A DNA stretch of 36,847 bases from Actinomycetes bacterium (GTDB lineage: Bacteria; Actinomycetota; Acidimicrobiia; Acidimicrobiales; RAAP-2): positions 1 to 36,847 of the forward strand of contig JAJXUK010000020.1 of NCBI GenBank assembly GCA_021782915.1, read 5' to 3'. This document shows positions 24,260 to 29,628 of this stretch, one piece after another. Position 1 is the stretch's first letter; each line of letters starts with the position of its first letter. The notes under the pieces are model-generated. The model saw only the letters and a list, made by a program, of their open reading frames with translations, searched no databases and was not told the origin of the DNA. The translations under genes and the position numbers were made by a program.

Positions 24260-24553
24260 GTGACGCCGCCTGACCATAGCGTTGCGCCGCCACGGCGAGG
24301 TGCACTGCCGCGCATCGAGGGACTCGTGGGCTACGTGATGGGTCATCCGGGCGATGCGTGGTGCATGTGTCGCGCAGGCTGGCGTTTGCGGCGCAGTGGG
24401 TGGTGGCGCTCGTCGCCATTTCTGCCGGTGCCCGACGAGCGCTACTGGCGCTTTCGAGTCGCCACGGTTCAGGGCGATGCGAACGGTCGACTTCGGGCCG
24501 ATGAGGTTGCCGCGGCCGCCAGATGGGCGATGAGCCAAATGCGAGGGCGATAG
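24260..24553 (+). CDS. small uncharacterised protein
   Basis: This 97-residue reading frame fills the gap between the DUF3040 and HNH genes. I do not recognise a named family. It has a Trp-rich centre (GWRLRRSGWWRSSPF) followed by FLPVPDERYWRFRVATVQ and an alpha-helical end (RADEVAAAARWAMSQMRGR). The proline-aromatic-RFR pattern looks like a real folded domain rather than chance translation, and I have the impression of similar small proteins in actinobacteria, unverified. Two cysteines (CMC) lie near residue 36. GTG at 24260 is the chosen start, with GGGA before it; other starts are possible. The TAG stop doubles as the first bases of the HNH gene's -10. Confidence 0.65.
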   Translation: MTPPDHSVAPPRRGALPRIEGLVGYVMGHPGDAWCMCRAGWRLRRSGWWRSSPFLPVPDERYWRFRVATVQGDANGRLRADEVAAAARWAMSQMRGR

Positions 24554-24556
24554 GTT
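24551..24556 (+). promoter_or_regulatory. -10 element of the HNH gene, leaderless type
   Basis: TAGGTT, six bases, then ATG at 24563. The TAG is also the stop codon of the small upstream gene. Confidence 0.55.
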
Positions 24557-24562
24557 TCACCC

Positions 24563-25069
24563 ATGGGGCGAGTCCTCCTGCTGAACGCCACGTATGAGCC
24601 GCTCCAACTGGTGAGCGAGCGCCGCGCGGTGGTGCTCATGTTGGCGGGTCGTGCCGAGGCCGTGGCGGTGCCGGACGAACCCGTGGTGTGCCGCTCCGCG
24701 ACCTTGGCGGTTGCCATCCCCTCGATCGTCCGGCTCCACGACATGGTGCGACTTCCGGCCAAGGTCCGCACGCCGCCTCTCACCCGTCGTAGCCTCTTGC
24801 TGCGCGACAGCTACCGCTGCGCGTACTGCCTCGAGCAGGCCGACACTATCGACCACGTGGTGCCGCGCAGTCGTGGTGGTCGTCACGAGTGGACGAACGT
24901 GGTCGCGGCCTGCAAGCGGCATAATCTGCAGAAGGGCGATCGGCTCCTCGAGGAGCTCGGGTGGCGACTGCACTTCGAACCGCGCATTCCCGATGGGCCC
25001 TGGTGGCGTTGGCGACATTTGCCCGACCCTGACCCGCTCTGGGCGCCCTTTCTTCCGCGCGCTTCGTGA
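24563..25069 (+). CDS. HNH endonuclease domain protein
   Basis: This is a small metal-dependent nuclease-like protein of 168 residues. It starts VLLLNATYEPLQLVSERRAVVLMLAGRAEAV, a characteristic N-terminal domain of this actinobacterial and cyanobacterial HNH group. The HNH core is RDSYRCAYCLEQADTIDHVVPRSRGGRHEWTNVVAACKRHNLQKGD (about 93-137): CxxC, DHV, the N of WTNVVAAC and a CxxHN end make a zinc-supported beta-beta-alpha-metal fold. The family is widespread and chromosomal; it is not evidence of a restriction system or intron. It is coupled to the next gene by GTGA. Confidence 0.92.
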   Translation: MGRVLLLNATYEPLQLVSERRAVVLMLAGRAEAVAVPDEPVVCRSATLAVAIPSIVRLHDMVRLPAKVRTPPLTRRSLLLRDSYRCAYCLEQADTIDHVVPRSRGGRHEWTNVVAACKRHNLQKGDRLLEELGWRLHFEPRIPDGPWWRWRHLPDPDPLWAPFLPRAS

Positions 25070-25704
25070 GCGTGACGGATCTCTACGACTACGACGCACT
25101 GCGCGCTCAAGCCTCGCCGAGCGTGAGCGTGGTGCTCCCAAAGCGCACGCTGCTGGTGCTCGGTTCCAGCCAGAACGAGACGATCCTGCGTGCTGACTGT
25201 CACGCCGAGCGACGACGTCGCCGCGGGGGAGGCGGAGTCGTGCTGACGGGCCCGGGTGACCTCTGGGTGGACTTCTGGATTCCGAGCAGTGACCCGCGGT
25301 GGCGTCCGGATAGCCGCGGTGCCGCGATCCTGGTGGGCGAGTGGTGGGCGGAGGCGCTTGGCGCAGCCGAGGTCGCCGCGCGGGTTCATCGCGAGGGCCT
25401 CGCGGGAGACGCGGGCCATCGACTCGTCTGCTTCGCCGGGGCGGGCCCCGGAGAGGTCTTCCTCGGGCCGCGCAAGATCGTCGGCGTGACCCAGTGGCGC
25501 GTGCGCGAGGGAACCTTCCTGTCGAGCATCGTTCCTTCTCGCTCGGCGAGGGAGATCCTCTCGTGTCTCAGCGAGGTTCCCGACGGCCTCGAGGACGTCC
25601 TCGATCACCACACGACCCACAGTCTGGCGCTGACGTCGGCCGTCGTCACGCGGCTCGTGGAGCTCTCGGGTCCGTGGGCCCGCGGGCTCGCCCCACACCT
25701 GTAG
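25066..25704 (+). CDS. lipoate-protein ligase A-like protein
   Basis: The protein belongs to the biotin/lipoate ligase fold (BPL_LplA_LipB). In 212 residues it has LVLGSSQNETIL (30-41), an arginine-rich then glycine-rich strand RRRRRGGGGVVLTGPGDLWVDF (49-70), equivalent to the RR.GGGavyh.pGdl.. motif, and GPRKIVGVTQWRVREGTFLSSIV with Lys137, the ligand-binding lysine. The family attaches lipoate or octanoate to lipoyl domains, but short actinobacterial members are not well characterised, so ligase activity is inferred. It ends 56 bases before a strong terminator that separates it from the dcw cluster. Confidence 0.85.
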   Translation: MSVTDLYDYDALRAQASPSVSVVLPKRTLLVLGSSQNETILRADCHAERRRRRGGGGVVLTGPGDLWVDFWIPSSDPRWRPDSRGAAILVGEWWAEALGAAEVAARVHREGLAGDAGHRLVCFAGAGPGEVFLGPRKIVGVTQWRVREGTFLSSIVPSRSAREILSCLSEVPDGLEDVLDHHTTHSLALTSAVVTRLVELSGPWARGLAPHL

Positions 25705-25760
25705 ATCGCGCGCACCGCTCCCGAGCGAGCGGCGTCTGATCCTGCGTCCACTTTCCCATT

Positions 25761-25798
25761 GAGCCTCGTCACGCCTGGTGCGCGGCGGGGCTCGTTTT
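25761..25798 (+). terminator. intrinsic terminator before the dcw cluster
   Basis: A 14-bp stem with two G-U pairs and one A-C mismatch (25761-25774 with 25780-25793) and a 5-base loop is followed at once by GTTTT. It is the clearest rho-independent terminator in the window and closes the HNH/lipoate-ligase-like unit. Confidence 0.8.
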
Positions 25799-25820
25799 GC
25801 TGACTTTGTGGCGACAACGG

Positions 25821-25861
25821 GTGGATTTTGGTGGAAAGTGGTGTATTGTGTCACGAAGTGG
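25821..25861 (+). promoter_or_regulatory. MraZ operator-like GTGG repeats
   Basis: GTGG or GTGT occurs at 25821, 25831, 25838, 25848 and 25858, with an extra GTGG at 25808. Two runs keep exact 10-base spacing (25821/25831 and 25838/25848/25858). MraZ is known to bind short G-rich repeats with a 10-base period in front of its own gene, so this is the likely self-repression site. A TATTGT at 25844-25849 inside it could be the promoter -10. Confidence 0.75.
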
Positions 25862-25887
25862 GGGCCAAATCCCCCGGGGAGGCGCTG

Positions 25888-26310
25888 ATGCTCGGGTTCG
25901 TTGGTCAGTTCCAGCACTCGCTGGATGCCAAGGGCCGCCTCATCCTGCCCGCGCGCTTTCGCCCCGAGTTCGAACGCGGTGGCCACGTGAGTCCGAACAG
26001 TGAGGGGTGCGTGGCGCTGTGGACCCCGAGCGAGTTCGCTCGTCAGAGCGAGGAGCGCCTGGCTCAAGCCCGCACCGGAGGCTCCGCGGAGCGCCAGGCG
26101 GCGCGCTACTGGGCCGCGAACTCTTCGGACGTCGAGTTCGACCGGCAGGGCCGCTTCGCCCTGCCCGCCACGATTCGCGCCTACGCCGAGTTGGAGGGCG
26201 ACGTCCTGGTCGTCGGCGCCCTCGACCACGTCGAGTTGTGGGCGCCCGCGACCTTTGAGCGAATGGTCGGCCCGGCGGAGGGTCTCTTCCGGCGGGGTGA
26301 CGACGAGTGA
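25888..26310 (+). CDS. mraZ: transcriptional regulator MraZ
   Basis: MraZ controls the division and cell wall cluster, usually repressing its own promoter. The 140-residue protein has two AbrB-like half-domains with the DxxGR signature: HSLDAKGRLILPARFRPEF (10-28) and VEFDRQGRFALPATIRAYAEL (87-107). Length and duplication are typical. ATG at 25888 follows GGGGAGG at good spacing. It is the first gene of the dcw cluster and has repeat operators directly upstream. Confidence 0.95.
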   Translation: MLGFVGQFQHSLDAKGRLILPARFRPEFERGGHVSPNSEGCVALWTPSEFARQSEERLAQARTGGSAERQAARYWAANSSDVEFDRQGRFALPATIRAYAELEGDVLVVGALDHVELWAPATFERMVGPAEGLFRRGDDE

Positions 26311-26340
26311 AAGGAGTTGTGAGTCCGTCAAGGACCACGT

Positions 26341-26415
26341 GCAGCCGGTCAAGCCTGAGCGCGGAGAATGCTTCCTCCTCCGCCCGTGTTCGCGCGCTCG
26401 AGGTTGACCGGCTGC
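26341..26415 (+). ncRNA. structured RNA leader of rsmH (mraW-motif position)
   Basis: The arms 26341-26352 and 26404-26415 are a perfect 12-bp inverted repeat. Inside them three more pairs form (26354-26356 with 26401-26403), then a 7-bp stem (26357-26363 with 26393-26399). The result is a near-continuous 22-bp helix with two single-base bulges, capped by about 29 bases rich in pyrimidines (CTTCCTCCTCCGCCC). It lies between mraZ and the likely rsmH ATG at 26418. The published mraW RNA motif, a hairpin of unknown function in actinobacteria, occupies the same place, so this is probably that element or an analogue. I could not compare it with the family consensus. An upstream rsmH start would make this region coding. 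Confidence 0.65.
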
Positions 26416-26417
26416 AG

Positions 26418-27359
26418 ATGGCCCCTGACAACTACCACGTACCTGTGCTCGTCGAGGAGATCGTCGAGCTCTTCGCCGGCCTGGAGGCTGGCGTGGTGGT
26501 TGACGCCACCTTGGGTGGCGCCGGGCACGCGGCGGCGATTCTCACGGCCAACGGTCGTGTCCGCCTGGTGGGCATCGATCGGGACCCGGAGGCCCGCGCC
26601 GCCGCGGTGGAGCGCCTGGCGCCCCTTGGCGACCGCGTCGTCATCGTGGATGCGTCCTTCTCCGACCTGGCTCGGGTGCTGGCCGAGCAGACCGAGTTCC
26701 TGCGTGAGGAGCCGATTGTGGGCATCCTCATGGACCTGGGCGTCTCCTCGCACCAGCTGGATGAGCCACAGCGGGGCTTCTCCTTCCGCGCGGATGCGCC
26801 CCTCGACATGCGCATGGACCCCACTCGTGGTCCTTCGGCTGCTGAGTACCTAGCCGACGTGGAGGAGATCGAACTGGTCCGGCTCCTGCGTGAGAACGGC
26901 GAGGACCGCTTCGCGCGGGCTATCGCCCGCGCCATGTTGGAGGATCAGCCATCGACGACCTTCGAACTCAATGCGTCAGTGGAGAGGGCGGTGCCCGCGT
27001 CGGCGCGTCGGCGCGGCCACGTGGCAACGCGCGTGTACCAGGCCCTGCGCGTTGCGGTCAACGAGGAGCAGCAGGAGTTGGAGGTCGGCTTGCGGGCGGC
27101 ACTCGACGTCCTGGCCGTGGGCGGCGTGATTGCCGTGATCTCGTATCACTCTGGTGAGGACCGGCTCGTCAAGTCGCTCTTCCACGAGGCCGCGACCGGC
27201 GGGTGTCACTGCCCGCCGGAACTGGGCTGCGTGTGCGGTGCGCTGCGTCGCTACCGCCTCGCCAAAGCCAGTGCGCGCCTCGCGTCACCCGACGAGATCG
27301 CGCTGAATCCGCGAGCGCGATCCGCGCGACTGCGCGTGGCGTATCGGGTGCTGCCGTGA
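26418..27359 (+). CDS. rsmH: 16S rRNA (cytosine1402-N4)-methyltransferase RsmH
   Basis: RsmH (MraW) methylates C1402 of 16S rRNA using S-adenosylmethionine. The 313-residue protein starts YHVPVLVEEIVELF, then the SAM motif VVDATLGGAGHAAAIL, VGIDRDPEARA, MDLGVSSHQLDEPQRGFSFR and ISYHSGEDRLVKSLF, all family hallmarks. Two starts compete. GTG at 26307 overlaps the mraZ stop (GTGA) but adds 37 serine/arginine-rich residues that do not look like the family. ATG at 26418 gives the normal N-terminus but has no Shine-Dalgarno sequence and sits two bases after a long RNA hairpin. I prefer 26418, with translation possibly controlled by that structure. The stop overlaps ftsL as GTGA. Confidence 0.94.
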   Translation: MAPDNYHVPVLVEEIVELFAGLEAGVVVDATLGGAGHAAAILTANGRVRLVGIDRDPEARAAAVERLAPLGDRVVIVDASFSDLARVLAEQTEFLREEPIVGILMDLGVSSHQLDEPQRGFSFRADAPLDMRMDPTRGPSAAEYLADVEEIELVRLLRENGEDRFARAIARAMLEDQPSTTFELNASVERAVPASARRRGHVATRVYQALRVAVNEEQQELEVGLRAALDVLAVGGVIAVISYHSGEDRLVKSLFHEAATGGCHCPPELGCVCGALRRYRLAKASARLASPDEIALNPRARSARLRVAYRVLP

Positions 27360-27805
27360 GCGTCATCACTCTTCCCAATCGGGTCGACGCCCCCCGTCGA
27401 CGCCCCCCGGCCTCGGACCGGCGCCCCCCGGCGCATCGGGCGGGAGCACCGCGACGCAACGCGTTGCGCACCGTGTGGCGCAGCGCGACCGCGACGCGTC
27501 GGTCTGGATTGATTGTCCTGGTTGCGCTGGCGATTTGTCTCGCCGGCTCGATGCTCGTGGCCAACCGGCAGGTGGAACTGCACCAACTCCAGACCCAGCT
27601 GCTCCAGGTCGAGTCCAATTACGCTCAGCAGGTGGGAAGTCTCGCCAACGCCGCCGCCCCGGGGCAGATCGCCAGGCGCGCGGGTGCCTTGCGCCTGGTC
27701 GACCCGCAGACCATCGTGCAGGTCCCGTCCACGCCACTTGATGTTCCGCTGCCCCTGCCGAAGTTCTCGGGTTACGCACCGGCGACATCAAGGACGGCTC
27801 GGTGA
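27356..27805 (+). CDS. ftsL: FtsL-like division protein
   Basis: The assignment rests on place (between rsmH and ftsI) and architecture; FtsL sequences diverge strongly. The 149-residue protein has an arginine/proline-rich cytosolic N-terminus (1-50), one membrane helix (about 51-69, GLIVLVALAICLAGSMLVA) and an outside coiled-coil stretch starting NRQVELHQLQTQLLQVESNYAQQV (70-93). That is the FtsL plan, a septal partner that helps activate FtsW-FtsI. The GTG start and GTG of ftsI both overlap preceding stops as GTGA. Confidence 0.82.
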   Translation: MSVITLPNRVDAPRRRPPASDRRPPAHRAGAPRRNALRTVWRSATATRRSGLIVLVALAICLAGSMLVANRQVELHQLQTQLLQVESNYAQQVGSLANAAAPGQIARRAGALRLVDPQTIVQVPSTPLDVPLPLPKFSGYAPATSRTAR

Positions 27806-29628
27806 GCCACGCCACCACGACTCACGCCCGTCGCTCCACGCCCACTCCGCGCCCCACCAGTTCTCGTGCCCGACGACTGAAACTGGTTCGGGGCCTGGCC
27901 CTGCTCGCCTTCGTGGCCGCGGCCGGCAACCTCTTCTGGATCCAGGTTCATCAACACGACCGCTGGGCCGCACTCTCGGTGGCTCAAGTCCAGGAGAACA
28001 TCACCACCAGCGCGCTTCGCGCGGGCATCTACGACCGGTACGGGCAGATCCTCGCCGTCTCGCGACCGACGTCGCTGGTGCTCGCCGATGACTTCCAGAT
28101 CGCGCACCCCGTGGCGGAGGCCGCCGCAATGTCGCCCCTCGTCAAGGTGCCGGTCGCCAAGCTGACCAAGCTGCTCTCGGAAAAGAACGGCTACGTCATC
28201 ATCAACAACGCTCTGGACCTGAGCGCGGGGCACCAACTGGCGTCGATGGCCTTTCCCGGCATCGTCGTCGAGAACTCGTCGGTGCGCAGCTATCCGAACG
28301 GGACCATCGCGACGTCCTTGATCGGGGGTACGAACGCCGCTGGTGCCGGGTCCGCGGGATTGGAGTACGAGTACCAGTCGCTCCTGGCTGGTCAGAGCGG
28401 CATCACTCGCACCTACGTCTCCGCCGGGGGAGTGGCCCTGCCCAGCTCGGCGTCGAGCGTGATTCGCCGTGCGGAGCCTGGGGTCGGACTCGAACTCACG
28501 GTGGACACGTCCCTGCAGTTCGTCACCGAGCGCGCCCTGGCTCGTCAGTTGGCCGCCACTGATGCCATCACCGGATGTGCAGTGGTGATGGATGTGAAGA
28601 CGGGCGAGATTCTCGCTGACGCCTCGCTGGTGAACACCAAGTCCCGAGCCGGCATTCTGGGCCCGGTTCCCGCGTGGGGCCAGAGTGTGGGCGTTCCGGG
28701 CATCGAGCAGACCATCAACAACTTGCCCTTCACGCAGGCCTACGAGCCCGGTTCGGTCTTCAAAGTCGTGACTTTCTCGGCCGCCTTGCAGGACGGCGTC
28801 ATCACGCCCAGTTCCGTGCTGACGGTGCCGAATCACATCGTCGTCGGTGGTCGACTCTTCCACGACGCCGAGAACCATGGACTGGAGCACCTCACCGCCA
28901 CTCAGGTGCTCGCCCAGTCCTCGAACATCGGTACGTACCTCATCGGTCGTCGTGTCGGTGAGGCGGGACTCCTCGCCCAGGTCGAGCGACTGGGCTTCGG
29001 TCAGGTGACGCCCGTGAACTTTCCCGGTGAGACGGCGGGTCTGCTGGTGACGGCGGCCAACTGGTACGGCAGCGACGCCGCCGCCCTGCCCATCGGCCAG
29101 GTGGACGCGATTCCGCCGATTCAGGTTCTGGACGCCTACAACACCATCGCCAACGGCGGCGTCTACGTCGCGCCCAAGATCGTGCGCGGATACGTCTACG
29201 CGAACGGCACGATGAAGGCCACGACGCCCAGCGCGACTCACGAGGTGCTCTCCCCGAGCGTGGACGCCACCATGATGCGCATGCTCCAGCAGGTCGTCCT
29301 GGATGGCACGGGCACGAACGCCGTGATCCCGGGCTACGCGGTGGCCGGCAAGACCGGCACGGCGTCGATCCCGTACCCCGGTAAGGACCTCTTGCTTTCG
29401 GGCGCCTACAACGCGACCTTCGTCGGCTTCGCCCCGGCCGAGGCGCCCGTGCTGTCGATGATCGTCGTACTCGAGCGACCGTTGACAACTATCTACGGAG
29501 GGTCGGCGGCCGCTCCGGTGTTCCAGCAGGTGATGAGCTACGCCCTGCATCACTACGACATCCCCTCCACGGGCGTCGTGGTGCATCCGCTCAAGGGCGC
29601 AGCCTCCATAGCCTCGGACGTGACCTGA
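27802..29628 (+). CDS. ftsI: division transpeptidase FtsI (PBP3 type)
   Basis: FtsI cross-links septal peptidoglycan and is a class B penicillin-binding protein. The 608 residues comprise a basic N-terminus, one membrane helix (about 30-48), a dimerisation/pedestal domain and the transpeptidase domain with all three motifs: SVFK with Ser318, SSN (373-375) and KTG (517-519). The order and spacing are normal. It is coupled to ftsL (GTGA) and murE (TGATG). Confidence 0.96.
   Translation: MSHATTTHARRSTPTPRPTSSRARRLKLVRGLALLAFVAAAGNLFWIQVHQHDRWAALSVAQVQENITTSALRAGIYDRYGQILAVSRPTSLVLADDFQIAHPVAEAAAMSPLVKVPVAKLTKLLSEKNGYVIINNALDLSAGHQLASMAFPGIVVENSSVRSYPNGTIATSLIGGTNAAGAGSAGLEYEYQSLLAGQSGITRTYVSAGGVALPSSASSVIRRAEPGVGLELTVDTSLQFVTERALARQLAATDAITGCAVVMDVKTGEILADASLVNTKSRAGILGPVPAWGQSVGVPGIEQTINNLPFTQAYEPGSVFKVVTFSAALQDGVITPSSVLTVPNHIVVGGRLFHDAENHGLEHLTATQVLAQSSNIGTYLIGRRVGEAGLLAQVERLGFGQVTPVNFPGETAGLLVTAANWYGSDAAALPIGQVDAIPPIQVLDAYNTIANGGVYVAPKIVRGYVYANGTMKATTPSATHEVLSPSVDATMMRMLQQVVLDGTGTNAVIPGYAVAGKTGTASIPYPGKDLLLSGAYNATFVGFAPAEAPVLSMIVVLERPLTTIYGGSAAAPVFQQVMSYALHHYDIPSTGVVVHPLKGAASIASDVT

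Follow-up and report, generated by a model that had tools for sequence, protein, structure and literature searches.

We identified a structured RNA directly upstream of rsmH in the window, that is, the whole 36,847-nucleotide stretch of DNA analysed here, and found that it represents a separate cis-acting RNA family of the class Acidimicrobiia, with the rsmH start codon lying inside its stem in the lineage of the window. The existence and structure of the element are near certain; its structure, covariation, strand and position, the AUG within the stem and the phase with mraZ were all demonstrated computationally. The genes at the site are ordered mraZ, rsmH, a penicillin-binding protein and then an ORF read as murE-like, and the features of the locus are as follows:

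25888-26310, + strand: mraZ (TIGR00242, E = 6e-24, 84.6 bits, under the curated cut-off of 98.35)
26307-26310, + strand: GTGA, an in-frame GTG overlapping the mraZ stop TGA (26308-26310), with GTG or ATG there in 27 of 27 genus genomes
26310-26316, + strand: purine-rich AAAGGAG right after the mraZ stop, loosely conserved
26332-26424, + strand: whole element, composed of the basal stem over the rsmH start codon and the main hairpin (match of the genus model R1 at 26319-26426, 94.7 bits; columns 14-106 of alignment A1)
26332-26337, + strand: GGACCA, 5' strand of the basal extension and complement of the start codon and codon 2 (5 pairs with 26419-26424)
26341-26415, + strand: main hairpin with 27 tested pairs, P1 and P2 being continuous in the genus form
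26372-26385, + strand: pyrimidine-rich terminal loop
26378-26385, + strand: nearly invariant loop core CUCCGCCC (alignments A1 and A2)
26380-26387, + strand: CCGCCCGU, the same as the 16S rRNA stretch with C1402 (sequence match)
26406-26411, + strand: site of the Shine-Dalgarno-like GAAAGG or GAGGGG of relatives, reading GACCGG in the window, with the opposite strand changed to match
26418-27359, + strand: rsmH, from the AUG inside the stem (TIGR00006, 279 bits, cut-off 154)

The hairpin at 26341-26415 was confirmed and is larger than first described. Its fold energy is -46 kcal/mol, whereas 200 dinucleotide-shuffled versions average -27.9 +/- 3.1 (z = -5.8), none of them folding as well, and the hairpin together with its flanks (26311-26440) reaches -66.5 kcal/mol (z = -5.4). 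The claim of the sequence-only reading that a structured RNA directly precedes rsmH is thus borne out by this z score and by the compensatory changes described below. That reading had described 22 bp closing a loop of 29 bases; the hairpin stood, but its size did not, as the tested structure has a main stem of 27 pairs, a loop of about 14 nt and 5 further basal pairs, all of which also occur in the minimum-energy fold of the window. Nor does the hairpin end before the ATG as had been supposed, since the stem runs across the AUG (26418-26420): U26419 and G26420 are paired with 26337 and 26336, respectively, and A26418 lies opposite C26338, unpaired in the window genome. On the other hand, the AUG does lack a clear Shine-Dalgarno sequence in the window, as had been stated. 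The genus model R1 scored 94.7 bits on the + strand of the window and 42.9 on the - strand, the window being among its 28 training sequences. In the window genome assembly (2.1 Mb, 84 contigs), the full-length element occurs in a single copy and the other 20 matches are partial, which rules out a dispersed repeat.

Several further observations were made upstream. Just 5' of mraZ, positions 25808-25843 contain several GTGG repeats, which we take to resemble MraZ operator repeats; mraZ may regulate itself at the DNA level, by analogy with what is seen elsewhere. A short GGGGG...CCCCC inverted repeat (25858-25880) is located directly 5' of the GGGGAGG Shine-Dalgarno-like stretch of mraZ. The small protein encoded at 24563-25066 has weak matches, far under the cut-offs, to the HNH regions of IscB (40.7 bits) and Cas9d (33.3 bits), and is probably an ordinary HNH endonuclease.

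We then compared the orthologous mraZ-rsmH gaps, as the sequence-only reading had proposed, and found extensive compensation. RsmH was detected in 59 of 61 genomes, 37 of them in the genus of the window (window included), and 30 loci were fetched, 28 of which were aligned (A1, window included), with L012 (masked bases upstream) and L036 (contig edge) left out. This gap-free alignment has 108 columns, over which RNAalifold predicted 30 pairs, 14 of them with changes on both sides. Within the genus form, 93.8% of cells are paired and 16 of 32 pairs show double changes; at most 1 of 500 shuffles was as high on any measure, a test that is inflated by the relatedness of the sequences. When the partner was slid by 1-3 columns, pairing fell to 27-40%, a control that leaves relatedness intact but is biased towards a structure drawn from the very sequences tested. 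Similar values were obtained for a longer, three-way form of the element (24 sequences; 90.3% of cells paired, double changes in 20 of 40 pairs, 0 of 500 shuffles). The basal pairs are paired in 99.3% of cells of the genus set with almost no variation, and their equivalents in the three-way form, pairs 14-133 and 17-130, show double changes; column pair 17-130, at codon 2 of rsmH (the base after the AUG), reads UA in 8 sequences, CG in 6 and GC in 2, and is unpaired in 8 of 24.

Next, we examined the distribution of the element. R1, which describes the genus form, matched 84 of 99 genus genomes at E <= 10 (best E < 1e-5 in 78 of them) and 59 of 298 order genomes at E <= 1. Most of the new matches were longer (up to 135 nt, a few beyond), and 24 of these longer matches align as a three-way junction consisting of P1 (the basal stem), P2 (which carries the conserved loop) and P3. 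The element is a single hairpin in most of the window's genus, where the window's form has no P3, and a three-way junction of about 135 nt in other families; the longer form is also present in some genus members (L081, L082, and L101). R2, with 24 training sequences, matched 264 of 397 order genomes, representing 141 of 203 genera, at E <= 0.1; the training sequences of both models (28 for R1) match by construction, and counts of absence are upper bounds because filtering was stricter in the large searches. A phylum sample of 396 gave 32 R2 matches (16 in the order, 6 in the same class outside the order, and 10 weak ones outside the class), and two further same-class genomes were listed without an R2 match. 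None of the 10 weak stretches outside the class had a convincing RsmH match (best E = 0.05 in two of them). Model match, compensatory pairing and position before rsmH coincide in this Acidimicrobiia leader family as captured by R1 and R2, the position having been checked for 126 unique elements (135 minus 9 duplicates), a subset of all matches, with the misses L194-L196, L202, and L204-L208 left out of the loop and start counts. Where a confirmed element was matched on both strands, its sense strand had the higher score (e.g., 136 vs 54 bits).

A scan of named records with the motif pattern returned at least 120 matches. Those listed include Acidiferrimicrobium sp. IK (class Acidimicrobiia) and PLHD01000025, CAIJYV010000027, PLON01000044, and PLQL01000031, three of which are titled Acidimicrobiaceae and one 'uncultured actinobacterium'; Streptomyces and Thioalkalivibrio, also among the matches listed, are likely chance, and the record titles Chloroflexi, Acidobacteria, and Saccharibacteria were taken as given. 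In the stretches next to rsmH of five genomes (G011, G026, G042, G038, and G055), R2 without filters found nothing above 8 bits. Two of these belong to the same genus as the window: in G011 (L329) the element is undetectable and rsmH apparently starts at the GTG overlapping the mraZ stop, and in G026 (L330) the element is likewise undetectable while the GTG, GAAAGG and ATG are still in frame. These two loci constitute a natural loss experiment. A second, weak R1 match (25.9 bits, E = 0.0056) was observed in another genus member at G100:C92:33848-33954, on a contig other than that of rsmH.

No family of Rfam 15 matches the element, nor is it described in the open-licence PMC literature searched (subscription papers being outside that scope). 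The passages available from PMC2864571, PMC5784534, and PMC3890552 yielded only one RNA at the mraZ-rsmH site, the mraW RNA motif (RF01746), described in Actinomycetales by Weinberg et al. 2010 (PMC2864571). The sequence-only reading had pointed out that the place of the window's hairpin matches this motif, but membership failed the covariance-model threshold in the window and in 61 relatives. RF01746 had no match in 24500-28500 up to E = 5 or in 12 relatives up to E = 1, and 0 of 61 relatives exceeded the gathering threshold (50 bits), the only weak match in the window genome lying on another contig; as controls, Corynebacterium glutamicum and 7 of 149 phylum genomes were over the cut-off. 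Conversely, R2 without filters had its best match on the mraW motif in two of eight mraW loci (L108 and L111), at 11 bits and E of about 0.1, and elsewhere or on the other strand in the other six. Neither model matches the other's loci significantly.

The two RNAs nevertheless have features in common. Both lie upstream of rsmH (mraW), between mraZ and rsmH, and form one long hairpin with a conserved pyrimidine-rich terminal loop. The loops differ, however: the conserved CUUCCCC of the mraW RNA, as read in its consensus and five loci, is absent from the window's loop, UUCCUCCUCCGCCC, and contrasts with CUCCGCCC of the Acidimicrobiia element. This difference, together with the lack of any RF01746 match over the cut-off, led us to reject identity with the mraW RNA, and the alternative held in reserve by the sequence-only reading, a separate element, proved right as to identity only. 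In the eight mraW loci examined, all outside the window's class, the RsmH motif HVPVL/HIPVL follows 41-185 nt past the motif end, and no common phase with mraZ was seen. The rsmH frame is open from the motif in seven of these eight loci (L106-L113), where other frames are often open too, and the published mraW motif may therefore overlap an N-terminal RsmH extension. Separately, a strong palindrome in one actinomycete locus (L109, 609-685), away from the mraW motif, gave 20-22 bits with R2 on both strands and is likely a generic hairpin.

The relationship between the element and the rsmH start was analysed across the family. Searches by tblastn with RsmH located the protein directly downstream of 121 of the 126 unique elements; 93 have within the stem a start codon (ATG in 89, GTG in 4) from which an open frame leads into RsmH, 28 have RsmH downstream but not continuous with the stem codon, and in the remaining 5 the 259 nt fetched gave no RsmH match. 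Some members of the downstream-start group possess a strong Shine-Dalgarno sequence of their own (L174 and L175). Many, if not most, relatives carry the Shine-Dalgarno-like hexamer GAAAGG or GAGGGG inside the stem. This hexamer was lost in the window and its two closest relatives, and the loss was matched on the other strand, as pairs 29-91 and 31-89 changed on both sides in these three sequences. According to structure prediction and covariation, the start site is paired in the closed form, and the fold, directly before rsmH and with the AUG in its stem, is predicted to be placed to control entry to rsmH translation, in agreement with the sequence-only reading. A start inside the stem can be functional, given that in L168 and L150 the stem codon, a GTG in both, is the only candidate start: mraZ is followed by an in-frame stop, beyond which the frame has no other ATG, GTG or TTG. 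Hiding the AUG is not the element's only or original job, because the element is kept where RsmH starts downstream; start-codon burial is, in many lineages, an output of a more widely kept element.

We further focused on translation through the element. An in-frame GTG (26) or ATG (1) is present at the mraZ stop in all 27 genus genomes read (L012, L033, and L036, masked or cut in this stretch, were left out). In the same 27 genomes the rsmH frame is open throughout the element, compared with two other frames closed in 19 and 26, which partly follows from sequence conservation; with 2.3 stops expected and 0 seen, stop avoidance is weak as proof of translation in the genus. Across the family (L012 outside the count), the distance from the mraZ stop to the start is 2 mod 3 in 78 of 92 stem-start elements, 14 being out of phase, and in 36 of the 50 distinct values (P = 3e-8 on the assumption of independence, which holds only partially). 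The intervening frame is open in 87 of these 92 elements vs 46 and 38 for the other frames. This phase is mildly in excess in the group with RsmH downstream as well (16 of 28 elements; 14 of the 26 distinct values; P = 0.025), where the frame is open in 14 of 28; selection may therefore not account for the whole phase signal, some of which could reflect common descent. Elements with the start in the stem thus hold strongly to the phase with mraZ, and the others favour it weakly.

The codons themselves appear unconstrained. In the hairpin, variability does not rise at third codon positions (0.71, 0.75, and 0.63 bits for positions 1 to 3), in contrast to the first 30 rsmH codons (0.51, 0.37, and 0.96). 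The synonymous share in the genus form is 0.15 in frame vs 0.18 and 0.19 out of frame, and that of rsmH itself is 0.48 vs 0.16 and 0.12; in the three-way form (13 sequences), values of 0.20 in frame vs 0.15 and 0.28 neither support nor exclude a weak coding role. The absence of codon constraint in the genus form indicates that the RNA is what is selected, and ribosomes probably pass through the element without the peptide being the selected product. The sequence-only reading had set its RNA against translation from GTG 26307 through conserved codons lacking covarying pairs; an open, phased frame does exist there, but codon conservation was not found and covarying pairs abound. A leader peptide in another frame was also considered and rejected: 26 of 27 genus genomes do have a UGA 13 nt ahead of the AUG, yet several of them break this frame farther upstream, and the UGA sits in conserved stem sequence.

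The most conserved part of the element is the terminal loop. Position by position, the loop core counts are C 28, T 28, C 28, C 28, G 28, C 28, C 27, and C 21 in A1 (28 sequences) and C 24, T 24, C 24, C 24, G 23, C 24, C 23, and C 23 in A2 (24 sequences), so that all 28 genus sequences have an unchanged CUCCGC, and the three-way form departs from it only at the G, once in 24. The core is present in 135 of 135 elements (duplicates included; 126 unique), which were located by a pattern that itself demands most of the core, and divergent loops could have been missed because the models themselves favour the conserved loop. A loop this fixed needs a partner and probably binds a factor, for which RsmH would be the best named candidate. 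Pairing of the loop with the purine-rich AAAGGAG that follows the mraZ stop, as a pseudoknot, was tried and not supported (mean duplex energy -10.1; 177 of 200 between-species re-pairings and 9 of 100 shuffles at least as good).

From these results we infer repression, coupling to mraZ, and a loop-binding factor, combined in a mechanism that we put forward tentatively, as plausible but somewhat short of probable. The element would act as a cis-acting RNA of the mraZ-rsmH mRNA, displaying its fixed pyrimidine-rich loop on a long stem whose pairing is conserved while its sequence varies. In the lineage of the window, where the 3' strand of this stem includes the rsmH initiation site, the fold would hide the AUG and hinder independent initiation. 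Most translation of rsmH would then come from ribosomes arriving from mraZ that reinitiate at the overlapping GTGA and stay in frame across the element. By unfolding it, these ribosomes could produce an N-terminally extended RsmH, expose the AUG for the short form, or both, and a factor bound to the loop would set the stability of the closed form. The AUG could be redundant, as ribosomes reading through from the GTG would make RsmH regardless of its exposure. Since the stem includes the rsmH start codon, the element probably controls the amount of RsmH made.

The identity of the loop-binding factor bears on an alternative in which RsmH regulates its own synthesis: the loop would imitate the 16S site around C1402 (E. 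coli numbering), which we take to be the base methylated by RsmH, and RsmH would bind it when its substrate is scarce, holding the closed form. The core CUCCGCCC matches 16S CACCGCCC at 7 of 8 positions, with the C1402-equivalent C present in 52 of 52 aligned sequences, and RsmH is the protein encoded directly downstream. The 16S of the window genome was not found in its assembly, and relatives' 16S was therefore used: CCGCCCG(U), the stretch around C1402, occurs in all three rRNA loci read (two confirmed as SSU), and CCGCCCG is the only sense match of at least 7 nt inside 16S common to the three. However, this resemblance was chosen after the fact, and its shuffle P of 0.006 applies to the window-type loop only, rising to 0.03 (7-nt identity) and 0.21 (7 of 8 matches) for the class loop and to 0.16 and 0.22 for the genus consensus loop. 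Likeness to 16S is also not unique to the C1402 target, because the loops have 7-nt complementary matches in all three 16S as well (CCCCUAC at two sites; UUCCUCC for the window-type loop). The mraW RNA, at the same gene, has a different loop. RsmH has solved relatives, 3TKA among them, and METTL15, its mitochondrial relative, contacts the RNA backbone rather than bases in the passages available from PMC10828496. Such autoregulation is, in our judgement, quite unlikely, and slightly more doubtful still is that the loop is a decoy of the C1402 site, with RsmH binding or methylating the rsmH mRNA in the start-hiding stem and so repressing its own production.

The stem, rather than the loop, is central to an explanation by RNA processing, in which RNase III or another nuclease would cut the stem and separate the mraZ and rsmH mRNAs, in the window lineage freeing the AUG strand and turning translation on. 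RNase III substrates are long, near-continuous stems with conserved pairing and variable sequence, as is the stem of the element, and cleavage would suit starts downstream as well as in the stem; but the near-invariant loop core would be left unexplained and the phase with mraZ would be purposeless, and we consider this account unlikely. A metabolite riboswitch acting through the three-way junction would account for the conservation of several helices in the leader and for a closing stem that, in many lineages, contains the start site. We regard it as very unlikely, as the genus form of the window is a plain hairpin without a third helix, the conservation peaks in the terminal loop, and no terminator-like site of the kind expected of an intrinsic terminator was found in 25700-26700. 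Finally, the open frame in all 27 genus genomes and its phase with mraZ would be expected if a coding N-terminal extension of RsmH were conserved and the hairpin incidental. With third positions and in-frame synonymous share showing no coding signal in the genus form, extensive compensatory changes, and 28 of 126 elements not continuous with RsmH, this is extremely improbable and, as the sole cause, already contradicted.

The element can be compared with other leaders. Leaders that sequester ribosome-binding sites are known from ribosomal-protein autoregulation, thermosensors, and translational riboswitches, and like them the element has a closing stem that contains the start codon, joined in many relatives by a Shine-Dalgarno-like hexamer. 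Unlike them, it has no known ligand or protein, its rsmH frame is continuous with the end of the upstream gene, and it is kept where the start is outside. Leaders processed by RNase III, such as that of adhE of E. coli, similarly have a long duplex at the 5' end of the coding sequence, whereas the element has a fixed loop sequence and its cleavage is only hypothetical.

The element lends itself to precise tests, thanks to the start codon held in its stem, its fixed loop and its phase with mraZ. If the loop imitates the rRNA target, ribosome maturation would be linked to the division and cell-wall cluster, and if the decoy reading is true, the dcw cluster would sense the amount of unmodified small subunit. 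In the literature passages available, the mraW RNA appears without a tested mechanism. The Acidimicrobiia element shares its place and general shape, and the two may serve one function, whether they arose convergently or from a remote common ancestor. That two classes each have a structured RNA at this position suggests that many Actinomycetota may control rsmH at the RNA level, and gives comparative leverage on such control.
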